Of a stretch of 64,000 bases of DNA, positions 21,731 to 30,033 are shown one piece after another. The translations under genes and the position numbers were made by a program. Under the pieces are notes generated by a model. It was not told the origin of the DNA and made no database searches. It saw only the letters and a list, made by a program, of their open reading frames with translations. Each line of letters starts with the position of its first letter. Position 1 is the stretch's first letter. This stretch comes from Thermodesulfobacterium hydrogeniphilum (GTDB taxonomy: Bacteria; Desulfobacterota; Thermodesulfobacteria; Thermodesulfobacteriales; Thermodesulfobacteriaceae). Location of the stretch: NCBI RefSeq assembly GCF_000746255.1, contig NZ_JQKW01000014.1:1-64000 (forward strand), written 5' to 3'.

Positions 21731-23344
21731 ATGGCTCTTCCAAAACCAGATGAATTATTGCAGAATGTAAATTTAAATAGAACCCCATCTCAACATTGGA
21801 TGGATATAAAAACAGAATTTAAACCTGGGACTTATTGTTATGCTGTTGAACCTCAGGTTATGAAGGATTTAGGACTTCCTAATTTAGGAAGTTGGCAACC
21901 TCATGATGAAAAATGGCCACTTCCTGAAAATTGGAAAGAGATAGTAAGAGATGCTATTAAAACTCGTATGGAAAGGTTTAGATCTTTCAAGCTTTTTATG
22001 GATATTTGTGTAAGATGTGGAGCCTGTGCTGATAAGTGTCATTTCTTTCTTGGAACCGGAGATCCTAAAAATATGCCTGTTTTAAGAGCAGAACTTATTA
22101 GGTCTATTATAAAAGGAGAATTTTCCACTTTTGCTAAATTATTTGGCAGATTTGCAGGTGCAAGGCCATTAACAGAAGATGTTATAAAAGAATGGTTTTT
22201 TTATTTTTATCAATGCACTGAGTGTAGAAGATGTTCTGTCTTTTGTCCTTATGGAATAGATACTGCAGAAGTTACTATCATAATGAGAGAAATTTTACAT
22301 GAGTTAGGAATTGCTATAGATTGGGCGATGAAACCTGTTAGATTTTCTCATTTTATTGGTAACCATATTGGAATTCAGCCTCATACTATGAAAGAGATTA
22401 TTGAATATTTAGTAGCTGATATTGAAGAGATTACAGGAGTAAAGATAGAGGTTCCTTTTAATAAAAAAGGAGCGGAAATATTATTTGTTCCTCCTTCTGG
22501 TGACTATTTTGCTGATCCAGGAATTTATAATTTTATGGGATATTTGATTTTATTCCACCACTTAGGACTTGACTATACTATAAGTACTTATGCTTCTGAA
22601 TCTGGAAACTTTGGATTTTTCAATAAATTAGAACTGGCTAAGAAGTTGCATGCTAAAATTTATGAAGAAGCAAAAAGATTGAAGGTTAAGTGGATTCTTG
22701 GTGGTGAATGTGGTCACATGTGGAGAGTTTGGCATCAATATCACAATACTTGGTATGGTCCTGTTAATTTTCTTGAAGTGCCAAAATCTCCTATTACTGG
22801 AACTGTTTTTGAACATGCTAAGGATAATAAAATTATTCATATTTGTGAGTTTACAGCAGATCTCATTGCTCATAACAAGATAAAACTTGATCCATCTCGT
22901 AATGATCATGTTATAGTGACTTATCATGATTCTTGTAATCCAGCCAGAGCTATGGGATTTTTTGAAGAGCCGAGATTCATTTTAAAACATGTTTGCAATA
23001 ATTTTGTAGAAATGCCTGAAAATACTATTAGAGAAAAGACTTTTTGCTGTGGAAGTGGATCTGGATTGAATACTGATGAATATATGGAAATGAGAATGAG
23101 AGGAGGATTTCCAAGAGCTAATGCTGTAGAGTATGTTCATAAGAAGTATGGAGTGAATCATTTAGCCTGTATCTGTGCAATTGATAGAGCAGTATTTCCA
23201 GCTCTTATGAATTACTGGGTTCCTGGTGTAGATGTGTGTGGAGTCCATGAATTAGTTGGAAATGCTATTGTACTTGATGGAGAAAAAGAAAGAACTACAG
23301 ATTTAAGATATCGTCCATTAAAAGGTAAGGAAGAGGAGGTATAG
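21731..23344 (+). CDS. dsrK: DsrK, HdrD-like iron-sulfur catalytic subunit
   Basis: A cytoplasmic-side subunit related to heterodisulfide reductase HdrD; it is thought to reduce the DsrC trisulfide. Two ferredoxin motifs are present, CVRCGACADKCHF (about 95-107) and CTECRRCSVFCPYG (about 162-175). The CCG-type cysteines for the special catalytic [4Fe-4S] cluster occur around GGECGHMWR, YHDSCNPARAM and TFCCGSGSGLN. The length is 537 residues. The ATG at 21731 follows GGGAGG. The stop is 2 bases before dsrJ. Confidence 0.97.
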   Translation: MALPKPDELLQNVNLNRTPSQHWMDIKTEFKPGTYCYAVEPQVMKDLGLPNLGSWQPHDEKWPLPENWKEIVRDAIKTRMERFRSFKLFMDICVRCGACADKCHFFLGTGDPKNMPVLRAELIRSIIKGEFSTFAKLFGRFAGARPLTEDVIKEWFFYFYQCTECRRCSVFCPYGIDTAEVTIIMREILHELGIAIDWAMKPVRFSHFIGNHIGIQPHTMKEIIEYLVADIEEITGVKIEVPFNKKGAEILFVPPSGDYFADPGIYNFMGYLILFHHLGLDYTISTYASESGNFGFFNKLELAKKLHAKIYEEAKRLKVKWILGGECGHMWRVWHQYHNTWYGPVNFLEVPKSPITGTVFEHAKDNKIIHICEFTADLIAHNKIKLDPSRNDHVIVTYHDSCNPARAMGFFEEPRFILKHVCNNFVEMPENTIREKTFCCGSGSGLNTDEYMEMRMRGGFPRANAVEYVHKKYGVNHLACICAIDRAVFPALMNYWVPGVDVCGVHELVGNAIVLDGEKERTTDLRYRPLKGKEEEV

Positions 23345-23346
23345 TT

Positions 23347-23733
23347 ATGTATAATGCCAACAAAGTTATTCCAGGAATAATTATTTTTATTTTATTTTTT
23401 ACTGCACCTATATGGTTAAATTTTGGGAGACTTGAGGCTATACCTCAACCAGAGTTGCCAAAAGGAGAAAAGAAATGTGTAGAATCAAAGGAGTATATGA
23501 GAGCTTATCATATGAAACTTTTAGATGATTGGAGAAAAAAAGCTATCCGTGAAAATCAATATATATACATAAACAGCAAAGGAGAGAAATATAGGATTAG
23601 TTTACAAAAAACTTGTTTAAAATGCCATAATAACAGGGAAAAATTTTGTGATAGATGTCATAATTTTGTAATTACACATCCAGATTGTTGGCATTGTCAT
23701 TTTACAAAGGAGGAGGCCAAAAAATGGCAATAA
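23347..23733 (+). CDS. dsrJ: DsrJ, triheme periplasmic cytochrome c
   Basis: A membrane-anchored periplasmic cytochrome c of the Dsr complex. An N-terminal hydrophobic helix (about 8-25) acts as an uncleaved anchor. Three CxxCH sites are present: CLKCH, CDRCH and CWHCH. Before them lies the DsrJ signature KKCVESKEYMRAYHMKLLDD, whose Cys is the candidate axial ligand of the unusual His/Cys haem. The length is 128 residues. The last 10 bases overlap dsrO. Confidence 0.97.
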   Translation: MYNANKVIPGIIIFILFFTAPIWLNFGRLEAIPQPELPKGEKKCVESKEYMRAYHMKLLDDWRKKAIRENQYIYINSKGEKYRISLQKTCLKCHNNREKFCDRCHNFVITHPDCWHCHFTKEEAKKWQ

Positions 23734-24518
23734 AGAGAAGGGACTTTTTAAAATTAGGTGGTTTAACTTTAGTTGGTACTGCAGCATCTGCTGCAGTGGA
23801 AAACCTTTTAATTAAAGGTGAGGCTAAAGCTGAAGGTTATACTTCAGCTCCAGAATCTCTAAAAGGTAAAAGATGGGCTTTAGTAATTGATGTTAAAAAA
23901 TGTAAAGAAAACCAATCTACTTGTGGTTTTAAATGTATTGAAGCCTGTAATGTTTATCATAATATTCCTAATATCCCTGATCCAAAGAAAGAGATTAAGT
24001 GGATATGGAAAGATAATTTTGAACATGCTTTTCCTGAAGAAGGTACTAACAAATATTTAGTAGAAAAATTGGAAGGGATTCCTTTTATACTTTTATGTAA
24101 TCATTGTGAAAATCCTCCTTGTGTAAGAGTTTGTCCAACCAGGGCTACTTTTAAAAGAGAGGATGGTATTGTAATGATGGATTATCATAGATGTATAGGA
24201 TGTCGTTTTTGTATGGCAGCGTGTCCTTATGGAGCAAGAAGTTTTAATTGGTATGATCCTCGTAAATATCTTTCCAAAGTAAACCCGCTATATCCTACAA
24301 GAACAAAGGGTGTAGTAGAAAAATGCACTTTGTGTTATGAGAGACTGGCAGATGGTAAAGTACCTGCCTGTGTAGAAGCGTGCCCAGCTAAGGCTATTAT
24401 ATTTGGAGATTTAAATGATCCTAATTCTGAAGTTAATAAAGTTTTAGAAGAAAGAATGGCTATCAGAAGAAAAGAGGAACTTGGAACAGGACCTTCAGTA
24501 TTTTATTTAATAGATTAA
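23724..24518 (+). CDS. dsrO: DsrO, periplasmic iron-sulfur subunit
   Basis: A Tat-exported ferredoxin-like subunit that links DsrJ to DsrP. I chose the ATG at 23724 because it follows AAGGAGGAGG and gives a clean twin-arginine signal (KRRDFLKLGG) followed by an Ala-rich stretch. Four cysteine groups are visible: CKENQSTCGFKCIEAC, CNHCENPPCVRVCP, CIGCRFCMAACPYG and CTLCYERLADGKVPACVEAC, consistent with up to four [4Fe-4S] clusters. The length is 264 residues. It overlaps dsrJ by 10 bases, and dsrP follows after 25 bases. Confidence 0.97.
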   Translation: MAIKRRDFLKLGGLTLVGTAASAAVENLLIKGEAKAEGYTSAPESLKGKRWALVIDVKKCKENQSTCGFKCIEACNVYHNIPNIPDPKKEIKWIWKDNFEHAFPEEGTNKYLVEKLEGIPFILLCNHCENPPCVRVCPTRATFKREDGIVMMDYHRCIGCRFCMAACPYGARSFNWYDPRKYLSKVNPLYPTRTKGVVEKCTLCYERLADGKVPACVEACPAKAIIFGDLNDPNSEVNKVLEERMAIRRKEELGTGPSVFYLID

Positions 24519-24543
24519 TAAATTTTAGAGGAGAGGTGTAAGT

Positions 24544-25734
24544 ATGATTGAAAAGGCTTTAAGAGGAAGTAAAAAATATTGGTTATGGCTTGCTTTTTTA
24601 GCATCTATTATTTTTATTGGATTTTTATGCTATCTAAAACAATGGAAAGTAGGTTTAGGTATTACAGGAATGAGCAGGGATGTGTCATGGGGATTTTATA
24701 TTGCTAATTTTACTTTTTTGGTTGGAGTAGCTGCTGGAGCTGTGATGATAGTTCTTCCATACTATTGGCATAATTATAAAGAATATGGCAAAATTACAGT
24801 TTTAGGTGAATTTTTAGCTGTTGCTGCAGTTTTAATGTGTATGTTGTTTATTTTTGTAGATCTTGGTCAACCTATGAGAGCATTGAATGTTTTAAGATAT
24901 CCTACACCTCACTCTGTATTCTTCTTTGATGCTTGTGTTCTTTCAGGATATTTATTACTCAATATTCTTTGTGGTTGGACAGTTCTGCATTCTGAATATA
25001 AAGGGACCAAATATCCTTCTTGGTTAAAGCCTTTTATTTATTTAGCTATACTTTGGGCTCCAAGTATTCATATTGTAACTGCTTTTATTTATCAAGGGTT
25101 ACCTGGACGTCATTTCTGGTTGACTGCTGTTATGGCTCCAAGATTTCTTGCATCTGCATTTTGTGCAGGCCCAGCATTTATAATCATTGCAGCCCTCCTT
25201 TTAAAAAGAGTAGCTAACTTTGATCCTGGTAAAAAAGCAATAGAAGCACTTTCTAAAACAGTTGCTTATGCATTTATTATAAATGTTTTACTTTTCTTCT
25301 TTGAACTTTTTACTTCATTTTATAGTGGTATTCCCAGTCATAAAGCACCTATTAAATATTTATTTGTAGGACTTCATGGACATGCAGAATGGGTTCCTTT
25401 TATGTGGGCTGCTGCTATTTTAGCTGCTGTTGCAATAATTTTATTAGTAATTCCTGCTACTCGCAAAAATGAAGCTACATTAGTTTTAGGATGTATAGCT
25501 GTTTTTCTTGCTTGCTGGATTGATAAAGGTATTGGTTTGATTGTAGGAGGATATACTCCTACACCATTTGAGACTATTACTGTGTACAGACCTACTTTAC
25601 CAGAAATTGGCATTGCTTTAGGTGTCTGGGCTTTGGGATTTTTTGTTCTTAGTGTATTATATAAAATAACAATAGAAGTTAAAAAATCAAAAGAATTAGT
25701 AGTAAAATATAATGGAATTTTATTTAAAAAATAA
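24544..25734 (+). CDS. dsrP: DsrP, NrfD-like membrane subunit
   Basis: The 396-residue NrfD/PsrC family integral membrane protein of DsrMKJOP, with about ten hydrophobic helices. It is thought to bind menaquinone on the periplasmic side and pass electrons through DsrO/DsrJ. Recognisable blocks are GMSRDVSWGFYIANFTFLVG, FVDLGQPMRALNVLRYPTPH and GRHFWLTAVMAPRFLASAFC. GGAG (GAGGAGAGG) lies before the ATG. It is the last gene before a strong hairpin terminator, which separates it from dsrN. Confidence 0.96.
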   Translation: MIEKALRGSKKYWLWLAFLASIIFIGFLCYLKQWKVGLGITGMSRDVSWGFYIANFTFLVGVAAGAVMIVLPYYWHNYKEYGKITVLGEFLAVAAVLMCMLFIFVDLGQPMRALNVLRYPTPHSVFFFDACVLSGYLLLNILCGWTVLHSEYKGTKYPSWLKPFIYLAILWAPSIHIVTAFIYQGLPGRHFWLTAVMAPRFLASAFCAGPAFIIIAALLLKRVANFDPGKKAIEALSKTVAYAFIINVLLFFFELFTSFYSGIPSHKAPIKYLFVGLHGHAEWVPFMWAAAILAAVAIILLVIPATRKNEATLVLGCIAVFLACWIDKGIGLIVGGYTPTPFETITVYRPTLPEIGIALGVWALGFFVLSVLYKITIEVKKSKELVVKYNGILFKK

Positions 25735-27398: not shown

Positions 27399-27418
27399 GG
27401 GGGCTTATGCCCCCTTTA
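27399..27418. terminator. Hairpin terminator between ferredoxin and coaD
   Basis: The stem GGGGGC/GCCCCC with a TTAT loop is followed by TTT on the plus strand. It lies between convergent genes and includes the coaD stop codon. Its minus-strand copy could also act on coaD but lies within the gene end. Confidence 0.8.
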
Positions 27419-27919
27419 AAAATTAAATCTTTCTTTTAATTTCTTAGCTACAATAGTTGGGACTAAATCGTCAATTTTTCCTCCTAATTTTGCAGCTTCT
27501 TTAATTATAGAAGAACTTAAAAATATCCATTTAAGACTTGGTATTAAAAAAATAGTATCAATACTATTTGAAAGTTTTCTATTCATCAAAGCTAATTGCA
27601 TTTCATATTCAAAATCTGAAACCGCTCTTAAACCTCTAATAATAGCACAAGCAGATTTTTTTTTGGCAAAATCTACTAATAAACCAGAAAAAATTTCTAC
27701 TTCTACTCTATCATGTTCAGGCAATTCTTTTATAGCTTCTTTTACTAAAAAAAGACGTTCTTCCTTAGAAAATAAAGCTTTTTTAGCGGGATTTTCTCCT
27801 ATAGCAACTATTATAGTATCAAATAATTTCAAAGCACGCTTTATAATGTCCATATGTCCATTAGTTATAGGATCAAAAGTTCCAGGATAAATTACAATTT
27901 TTTTACAAATCTTGCTCAT
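27416..27919 (-). CDS. coaD: Phosphopantetheine adenylyltransferase
   Basis: Adenylylates 4'-phosphopantetheine to dephospho-CoA in coenzyme A synthesis. The 167-residue nucleotidyltransferase shows YPGTFDPITNGHMDIIKRA (with the T/HxGH-type nucleotide site), RGLRAVSDFEYEMQLALMNR and the ISSS-like LSSSIIKEAAKLGG. It lies 2 bases after the WPF-repeat gene and is probably co-transcribed with it. Confidence 0.97.
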   Translation of the reverse strand: MSKICKKIVIYPGTFDPITNGHMDIIKRALKLFDTIIVAIGENPAKKALFSKEERLFLVKEAIKELPEHDRVEVEIFSGLLVDFAKKKSACAIIRGLRAVSDFEYEMQLALMNRKLSNSIDTIFLIPSLKWIFLSSSIIKEAAKLGGKIDDLVPTIVAKKLKERFNF

Positions 27920-27921
27920 TT

Positions 27922-29346
27922 TTAATCCCTAAAATTTATATATAGAATTTTTAAAATTGACTTTCCTTCAATTTTCCCTATACCTAAGAGCCCTTCTAAA
28001 AATTCTACATAATTAGTATTTTTATCTTTTATTACCCTTAGAAAGAAAGCCAATTCTTGAGTTTCTCTATTTCCAAATTTTTCACATCTATAAAGCCCCC
28101 ATAATAATTTAAAAAAAGAATATTTATTTTTCTTATAATATTCCATTAATTTTAAAAATGCACTATAATTTCTTTCTATTCCTTCATCATAAAAAGGCAA
28201 TATAGCTGGGAAATACCAATATTTTAAATGGATAGAATTACTGTCTAATTGATAATCATACACAAAAGGCCATAATCTTATTTCTTTTTTTATAGTATTA
28301 TTTTTATTAATATAAGTAGATTTAGAAAGTAATAAAAATCTATGTTCAACTTTTTTATAATGAAATTTTCCTTTATATATATTATCAGTTTTATAAAAAT
28401 ATAGAGGCCATAAAATAAAGGAATCTGAAGAATTTTTTCTTTTTACACAACCATAAAATGGCCAAATTCTTATTCCATTAATATTTTTACCTTCTATTTT
28501 TCTATAAAATGGCCAAGGAGCATCTATTTGTTTATAACAAGAATTTTTTGCATAAATTTTCTGGAAAAAAGGCCATAAAATTATCCATTTATTATAAGAA
28601 TCTGTATTTTCTCTAATATATAAAGGAAAAATGATAAGTTTTTGAGAAAACGGATCTTTTTCTTTAATATAAAAAGGCCATAGGATAAAAGTTCTTTCCA
28701 TAAGTCTTTCTTTAAAATGTCCATAAATAGGCCATATTTTAAATCCATTATATTCTTTAGATTTAGGTTCATTTGGTTTTATAATTCTAATAAAAGGCCA
28801 GAAGAAATTTTCAGAGGTGTATTTTTCATATTGAGCTTTGCTATATACGGGCCAGAGAAAAAAAGTTATTTCTTTAGCCCCCAATCTATTTTTAAGTTTC
28901 CCATAGAAGGGAAAAAATCCACCATAGGTTTGATTATCCGAAGTAACCCCTGCAAAAATAGGGAAAAATTCCCAGTTTTTAACATTTTTTTCTTCTTTAG
29001 CTTTATGCCAGGTTTTTTTGAGAATAGGAAATAATTTAAGAGTTGAGGTTTCATTATCAGATTTATAAACACCTAAGGGAGAAAGAAAATAAGCCTTCCT
29101 TCCCTGAGAATTGCTTACAGAGGAATAAAAAGGTCTTATAAAAAGACCATTTTCCTCAGGAAATTTATACTTGTAAAAAAATGGACCCAGAATTTCTATT
29201 TTTTTTATATTTGTTTTTTTATTTTTATAAAAAACTAAAAAAGGCCAGAGATTTAAAGATTTTTCAAAACTATCTTCATATGCTGAGCAAAAAGAAACTT
29301 TAAAGAGGAACAAGACTATAAAAATAATAAATAACAAGTTTTGCAT
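27922..29346 (-). CDS. Exported protein with about 18 WPF/WPxY beta-strand repeats, function unknown
   Basis: A 474-residue protein with an N-terminal signal peptide (hydrophobic to ...VSFCSAYED). The mature part is built from a short recurring motif, (I/L/F)(L/I/W)(W/F)P(F/L/I)(Y/F)-x-K/R, repeated about every 20 residues from residue 33 to about 400. Clear copies are LNLWPFLVFYK, GGFFPFYGKL, FFLWPVYSKA, FKIWPIYGHF, FILWPFYIKE, IILWPFFQKI, IRIWPFYGCV and FILWPLYFYK. The mix of aromatic and charged residues without long hydrophobic helices fits an outer-membrane beta-barrel or a beta-solenoid. I know no function. It has its own leaderless-type promoter and is followed by coaD. Confidence 0.8.
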   Translation of the reverse strand: MQNLLFIIFIVLFLFKVSFCSAYEDSFEKSLNLWPFLVFYKNKKTNIKKIEILGPFFYKYKFPEENGLFIRPFYSSVSNSQGRKAYFLSPLGVYKSDNETSTLKLFPILKKTWHKAKEEKNVKNWEFFPIFAGVTSDNQTYGGFFPFYGKLKNRLGAKEITFFLWPVYSKAQYEKYTSENFFWPFIRIIKPNEPKSKEYNGFKIWPIYGHFKERLMERTFILWPFYIKEKDPFSQKLIIFPLYIRENTDSYNKWIILWPFFQKIYAKNSCYKQIDAPWPFYRKIEGKNINGIRIWPFYGCVKRKNSSDSFILWPLYFYKTDNIYKGKFHYKKVEHRFLLLSKSTYINKNNTIKKEIRLWPFVYDYQLDSNSIHLKYWYFPAILPFYDEGIERNYSAFLKLMEYYKKNKYSFFKLLWGLYRCEKFGNRETQELAFFLRVIKDKNTNYVEFLEGLLGIGKIEGKSILKILYINFRD

Positions 29347-29490: not shown

Positions 29491-30033
29491 ATGAGGAAAA
29501 TAATTGTATTTTTGATTTATACTCATTTAAGAGATGAAATTTTAAGAGAATTAAAATCTCATCTTGAAGATGTTTTTTCTTTAGAAACTGAATTTTATGG
29601 ACTTAGTATAGACATAAATGATGCATATAATTTTACCAGAAATCAGTATTTGGCTTCAAAAATAATAAAAAAAATGTTTCCTTATAAAAATAATTGGAAA
29701 GATAAATGGATTTTTTTTGTGGATGTAGATCTTTATACCCCTGGTCTTAATTTTATTTTTGGAGAGGCTTATCCCAGATATGGTATTGCTATTGTTTCTT
29801 TAACAAGATTAAAACCTGAATTTTATGGATCTAAACCCAATGAAAGATTATTTACTGAGAGACTTTTAAAAGAAACAACCCATGAGTTGGGACATCTTTT
29901 TTATCTTCATCATTGTGAGAATCCTAATTGTGTGATGCATTTCTCTAATAGTATTTTAGATACTGATAGAAAAAGTAAATATTTTTGTCTAAATTGTAAT
30001 TTTTTATTAAAAGCAAACATGCTGATAATTTAA
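29491..30033 (+). CDS. Archaemetzincin-type zinc metalloprotease
   Basis: A 180-residue protein with the archaemetzincin signature: the HELGHLFYLHHC zinc site (HExxHxxxxxHC), then ENPNCVMHFSNS and a closing FCLNC. The four cysteines form the second, structural zinc site of the family. The N-terminal half carries VDVDLYTPGLNFIFGEAYP and the IVSLTRL block. Archaemetzincins are cytoplasmic and common in archaea but sporadic in bacteria; their natural substrates are unknown. There is no signal peptide. It is followed by a CoA-ligase gene. Confidence 0.93.
   Translation: MRKIIVFLIYTHLRDEILRELKSHLEDVFSLETEFYGLSIDINDAYNFTRNQYLASKIIKKMFPYKNNWKDKWIFFVDVDLYTPGLNFIFGEAYPRYGIAIVSLTRLKPEFYGSKPNERLFTERLLKETTHELGHLFYLHHCENPNCVMHFSNSILDTDRKSKYFCLNCNFLLKANMLII

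Follow-up and report, generated by a model that had tools for sequence, protein, structure and literature searches.

MlaA (VacJ; PF04333) is the outer-membrane lipoprotein of the Mla system, in which MlaEFD is the pump for lipids passing between the inner and outer membranes. The sections of PMC10665443 drawn on here describe, in Veillonella, an MlaEFD complex without MlaA or MlaC, in which a long MlaD carries a fused outer-membrane barrel. In the same sections, a 2023 survey places the fused barrel in only ~10% of MlaD proteins, with most long MlaD having no barrel, and the fused barrel is absent in PVC; unidentified proteins are suggested (PMC10665443).

The window, by which is meant the whole stretch of 64,000 nucleotides of Thermodesulfobacterium hydrogeniphilum DNA that was analysed, contains a gene that would fit this gap as those sections present it. 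Its product, here called WPF after its motif, appears to be secreted, carries a lipobox in some homologues, occurs with a long MlaD that lacks a barrel, and is largely exclusive with MlaA and MlaC. The features of the gene and its neighbour are as follows.

27922..29346, minus strand: WPF gene, 474 aa, ATG start; secreted protein with a predicted beta-meander, put forward as a partner of MlaEFD on the outer-membrane side
29281..29346, minus strand: predicted Sec signal sequence, residues ~1–22; hydrophobic N terminus, modelled as a helix at 2–20
27946..29265, minus strand: predicted antiparallel meander of 45 strands, residues 28–467; hydrophobic (WPF-type) turns alternating with polar turns
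28399..29031, minus strand: most regular WPF-type turns, residues 106–316; motif spacing 17–22 aa
28075..28233, minus strand: conserved C-terminal block, residues 372–424 (FPAxLP..DEG.ERN ... LWGLYR); includes helix 388–398
27416..27919, minus strand: CTP_transf_like (PF01467) gene, downstream of WPF; Pfam match

The PF01467 gene, which we take to be coaD, starts 2 bases past the WPF stop codon, so that the two are probably co-transcribed in the window's genus. Divergent from the WPF gene is a Peptidase_M54 (archaemetzincin-type) gene at 29491–30033 on the plus strand (1.4e-28). Also on the plus strand, at 21731–25734, is a run of Fe-S, cytochrome and NrfD genes with Fer4 and NrfD matches, presumably resembling the dsrKJOP genes of sulfate reducers.

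The WPF protein and its predicted fold

The first-pass annotation, made from the sequence alone, described a secreted protein of about 18 WPF/WPxY repeats. The open reading frame is confirmed, with a hydrophobic signal over its first ~22 residues, and signal sequences are present in most rows of the family alignment, from which the protein is probably exported. There is no lipobox in the window's WPF protein; several homologues have one (6/40, 12/47, and 2/40 loci in three locus sets, by a simple rule). The repeats are real, since [WF]P[FILV] in its strict form occurs 14 times along the mature chain and 20,000 composition-preserving shuffles give a mean of 0.96 and a maximum of 6, none reaching 14. 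As a count, 18 is above the strict number and near the 19 prolines found in hydrophobic motifs when degenerate copies (LGPF, IRPF, LSPL, YFPA, ILPF) are included. In an alignment of 50 rows, 17 of these 19 prolines are each conserved in 44–50 rows; the one at position 35 is present in all 45 ungapped rows and the one at position 129 in 33/50.

An AlphaFold2 model built on 50 sequences, the kind of check proposed for the first reading, is confident and all-beta, with 45 short strands (mean pLDDT 91.9, pTM 0.76). Most strands are of 5–7 residues, with six of 8–10; membrane-spanning barrel strands usually have at least 9, by which measure 5–7 is short. The 44 connecting segments alternate in their hydrophobic-plus-proline fraction, at 0.48–1.00 for the 22 odd-numbered and 0.00–0.50 for the 22 even-numbered (alignment average), which would place all of the W-P-F turns on one edge of the sheet. 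The residues beside these turns tend to alternate between hydrophobic and polar, which would make one face near that edge hydrophobic.

The model is an antiparallel meander and not the beta-solenoid that had been suggested, while the aromatic belt of that suggestion is recognizable as a line of aromatics along one edge. The expected period of about 20 residues holds, at 17–22, between residues 106 and 313. The motif lies mainly in turns rather than strands, and the K/R-rich turns do exist, as K/R/D/N-rich segments that are the turns opposite the WPF turns. The repeats are individually distinct, and the 45 strands of the model can all be aligned in most rows (43–45 in nearly all rows from the window's phylum, 42 in L151, and 36–40 in five rows from the second phylum described below).

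The nearest solved structures in VIA-align, which was limited to folds that Foldseek returned, are single-layer sheets: MORN1 (Z 9.9), engineered OspA (Z 9.9), and the TCP10 domain of CPAP (Z 8.9–9.7). The rmsd is mostly 9–17 Å over partial coverage, with one MORN1 row at 5.8 Å and Z 7.5; porins and LptD (Z 5–6) and apoB score below these. No close known fold was found in the PDB and BFVD, where Foldseek TM-scores by query length are at most ~0.2 among the matches listed. The predicted fold is unusual.

The window's WPF protein has no match in Pfam or NCBIfam at E≤10 in each, including MlaC (PF05494) and the MCE domain (PF02470) in Pfam, and none in PADLOC at E≤1. A single-sequence search for a solved relative was at chance level (E 0.83) and a profile search found none, which bears out the earlier statement that no known family could be assigned. 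The family is unnamed, conserved, and secreted; no prior description was found in the open-licence literature, bioRxiv lying outside it, and a report elsewhere is possible. An anti-phage system was rejected as there is no PADLOC match, and a viral origin was rejected as one scan of viral contigs returned no relative.

Distribution and gene context of the WPF family

A first scan of genome contigs with the single WPF protein as query gave no match. WPF homologues are present in 47/60 relatives, and by profile search in 114/395 genomes (69/246 genera) of the window's phylum, where many matches are full-length and others cover only part of the profile. Among named genomes, 55 loci were found, mostly in Thermodesulfobacteriota and other deltaproteobacterial assemblies, together with six from Kiritimatiellae/Kiritimatiellia and one from Lentisphaerae. 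In the phylum of a Kiritimatiellae genome, which we take to be Verrucomicrobiota in GTDB and refer to as the second phylum, there is a match in 140/288 genomes, some of them weak or partial. Parts of the profile are also matched by long open frames (~865–1,100 aa) in genomes of the second phylum (such as G602:C28, G675:C145, G667:C126, G475:C24), which from their sequences are possible longer paralogues with WPF repeats.

An MCE/Mla transporter locus (MlaE-MlaF-MlaD) has genes for a PF02405 permease, an ABC ATPase, and a PF02470 MCE protein side by side. A WPF locus was counted as linked when a six-frame profile scan placed mlaE, mlaF, or mlaD on the strand of WPF and no more than 3.5 kb away, overlapping genes included. 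Among 40 loci of the window's phylum picked for spread, 32 are linked to mlaE-mlaF-mlaD; the unlinked loci are L066, L081–L085, L096 (at 4.8 kb), and L099. At linked locus L061 the partners match MlaE (2.5e-86), ABC_tran (6.9e-34), and MlaD (2.8e-21) in Pfam. In the named genomes 30/48 deltaproteobacterial loci are linked, the exceptions being mostly relatives of Thermodesulfobacterium and Caldimicrobium or short contigs. At L145–L147, L149, and L150, mlaD-WPF pairs are preceded by a gene of ~524 aa and not by mlaE or mlaF; in L145 this is a TPR protein by Pfam.

In the second phylum 37/40 loci are linked (all but L207, L229, and L236), with WPF first and mlaE directly next. There are two gene orders, EFD-WPF and WPF-EFD, with median gaps of 18–51 bases. 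Of the seven Kiritimatiellae and Lentisphaerae loci from the named genomes two are linked, and the partners at L157 match MlaE (3.2e-63), ABC_tran (1e-32), and MlaD (4.7e-14). The other five have no MCE genes nearby, which counts against a partnership with MlaEFD. Three of the Kiritimatiellae/Lentisphaerae loci without nearby MCE genes (L152, L156, L159) have WPF downstream of a gene for ~1,040–1,110 aa, an arrangement that is a second context of the family, and in L156 this upstream gene encodes a TPR protein, with a UbiA prenyltransferase gene on the other side of WPF.

The window's own genus and a near genus (L081–L085, also L160) are likewise unlinked, and this too counts against the partnership; other genera of the same family (L086–L088) retain the linkage. 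In the window and L081–L085 the WPF gene precedes the presumed coaD instead of adjoining mlaEFD. A function tied to coaD was rejected, as this neighbour is found only in these loci and most others keep mlaEFD.

WPF is a single-copy gene in the window's genome, which has two MCE/mlaEFD sets, both unlinked to it. One unlinked MlaD scores 442 bits with the profile of WPF-linked MlaD, and the second MCE locus scores 62 bits. Next to this second locus (L161:4341–5752) is a gene of 171 aa whose match to ABC_trans_aux (PF03886) is weak (2.7e-4) and below the cut-off.

Other Mla components in genomes with WPF

MlaE is present in 113 of the 114 genomes with WPF, but as it is present in 378/395 genomes of the phylum anyway, this is weak evidence. 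MlaA is present in 209/395 genomes, and there the division is marked: 17/114 with WPF against 192/281 without (Fisher p 5e-23, by genome). Relatedness was addressed by a family-level count only, which gives 9/27 against 61/80 of the 107 families (Fisher p 1e-4). WPF and MlaA are largely mutually exclusive, with the 17 genomes that have both counting against replacement of the one by the other.

MlaC was found in 0/33 genomes with WPF and without MlaA, and in 31/32 with MlaA and without WPF, sampling one genome in three from the first list and one in six from the second; as the genomes were chosen by their MlaA status, this result is conditional on MlaA and not independent of it. MlaC is absent from the window's genome. 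By our reading, 29 of the 32 tested genomes with MlaA have an MCE open frame of less than 200 aa, the other three being G276, G348, and G376.

The WPF-linked MlaD of the window's phylum are mostly 300–430 aa (range 258–431), with repeated GEGTLGKL segments and a C-terminal tail of the type EQTPITVLGT. A pattern for this tail, composed after the WPF-linked tails had been inspected, matches 28/30 of them, the remaining two being variants by eye, and matches none of the MCE proteins of genomes without WPF (0/30 best-scoring, 0/12 long). In the window's genome the tail is present in the unlinked MlaD and not in the second MCE protein. In the second phylum almost every MlaD ends in a like tail, of types RETSPITTFSSIFFGAF and DQGPITAVGVAANSLF; the exceptions are L217, which departs from these types, and L203, which runs off its contig.

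The model of one WPF-linked MlaD (pLDDT 56) predicts the MCE domain with confidence and otherwise shows a transmembrane helix and low-confidence helices, with no C-terminal barrel in this low-confidence region. The number of GEGTLGKL...LY repeats varies among the WPF-linked MlaD of L061–L151, with 0–5 exact copies of GEGTLG, which suggests from sequence an adjustable length of MlaD across the periplasm. Two MCE proteins from genomes with MlaA (L259, 560 aa; L268, 836 aa) have C-terminal sequences that look barrel-like by eye, so that three MlaD arrangements may coexist in the window's phylum.

Proposed role and comparison with known systems

Operon linkage in two phyla, the near-exclusion of MlaA and MlaC, the MlaD tail, and the beta-meander with its aromatic edge together make it probable, on balance, that WPF is a fourth component of MlaEFD, serving a long MlaD without a barrel from the outer-membrane side, in place of MlaA and MlaC; we infer its location and mechanism. 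A functional link with MlaEFD is very likely and the replacement of MlaA and MlaC likely, while edge-on insertion of WPF in the inner leaflet is put forward tentatively. The secreted protein would sit at the outer membrane, on the side facing the periplasm, and the MlaD hexamer would span the periplasm through its long helical part, with its conserved C-terminal tail (EQTPITVLGT-type) docking on WPF. Phospholipid would then move between the leaflet and the channel of MlaD, and the likeliest direction, by analogy with other Mla systems, is inward.

The shortness of the WPF strands for an ordinary barrel is counted against this partnership, and also against the alternative that WPF is itself an integral outer-membrane beta-barrel, acting as a lipid pore for MlaD. 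Such a role fits the published fused barrel, as far as the sections of PMC10665443 used here describe it, and would agree with an all-beta protein whose C-terminal strand ends in hydrophobic or aromatic residues and which has a weak structural likeness to porins and LptD (Z 5–6). With strands mostly of 5–7 residues, however, hydrophobic residues clustered at one edge or turn and not along membrane-spanning strands, lipoboxes in several members, and an end strand number that differs between the phyla in the alignment (43–45 against 36–40), this alternative is unlikely.

The single-layer sheets and apoB-type matches among the structural neighbours, and the hydrophobic and polar faces near the WPF turns, would also suit an open sheet standing beside MlaD as a periplasmic lipid wall or slide, its hydrophobic face shielding acyl chains as in bridge-like lipid transfer proteins. 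Laid flat, ~45 strands at 4.8 Å each would extend for ~20 nm, which is of the order of the periplasm. Yet the hydrophobicity is at one edge with no continuous groove, the long MlaD already supplies a tube, and there is no Pfam family match, so that this alternative is also improbable. That WPF has a structural role in the outer membrane or at its surface, and is near mlaEFD for expression only, would account for loci without mlaEFD neighbours and for its place beside the presumed coaD in the window's genus, but is very improbable given a linkage that recurs in two phyla with opposite gene order, and the association of WPF with the absence of MlaA and MlaC and with the special MlaD tail.

As an outer-membrane-side partner, WPF would be a concrete candidate for the missing component of MlaEFD systems without MlaA and MlaC in two phyla, and would identify the binding target of the conserved tail of the long MlaD. 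Should it insert in the leaflet, it would represent a membrane-protein architecture in one leaflet made almost solely of beta hairpins, and would supply the missing partner in a PVC lineage.

The MORN repeats, the OspA single-layer sheet, and the TCP10 domain of CPAP share with the WPF model consecutive hairpins in a single-layer sheet; they differ in the large rmsd, in having no sequence match (for MORN repeats none in Pfam to the window's protein, the likeness being structural only), and in their unrelated function. There is a weak profile likeness between NCBIfam NF047486 (LA_1737_Cterm) and 7/50 WPF members, L105 and L143 among them, below threshold with a best E of 4.7e-5, and the scores of two members are ~22 bits at best against a curated cut-off of 60; the window's WPF has no match. 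From its name NF047486 is presumably a Leptospira family, and these matches hint at distant relatives of WPF there. A literature search for LA_1737 returned unrelated papers only.

PqiC (ABC_trans_aux, PF03886), the lipoprotein of Pqi-type MCE systems, resembles WPF in being a secreted accessory protein of an MCE system. PF03886 does not match the window's WPF in Pfam, and its weak match is instead beside the second MCE locus. MlaA is alike in the role proposed here, as outer-membrane partner of MlaEFD, and in the lipoboxes of some WPF proteins, but PF04333 has no match to the window's WPF at E≤10, the WPF model is all-beta, and the two nearly exclude each other in genomes. Also comparable is the long MlaD of Veillonella parvula, for which the sections of the paper used here likewise give no MlaA or MlaC, a long MlaD, and a part rich in beta structure that is placed, as a proposal, at the outer membrane; there a 10-stranded barrel is fused to MlaD (PMC10665443), whereas WPF is a separate protein with 45 predicted short strands and its MlaD is short-tailed.
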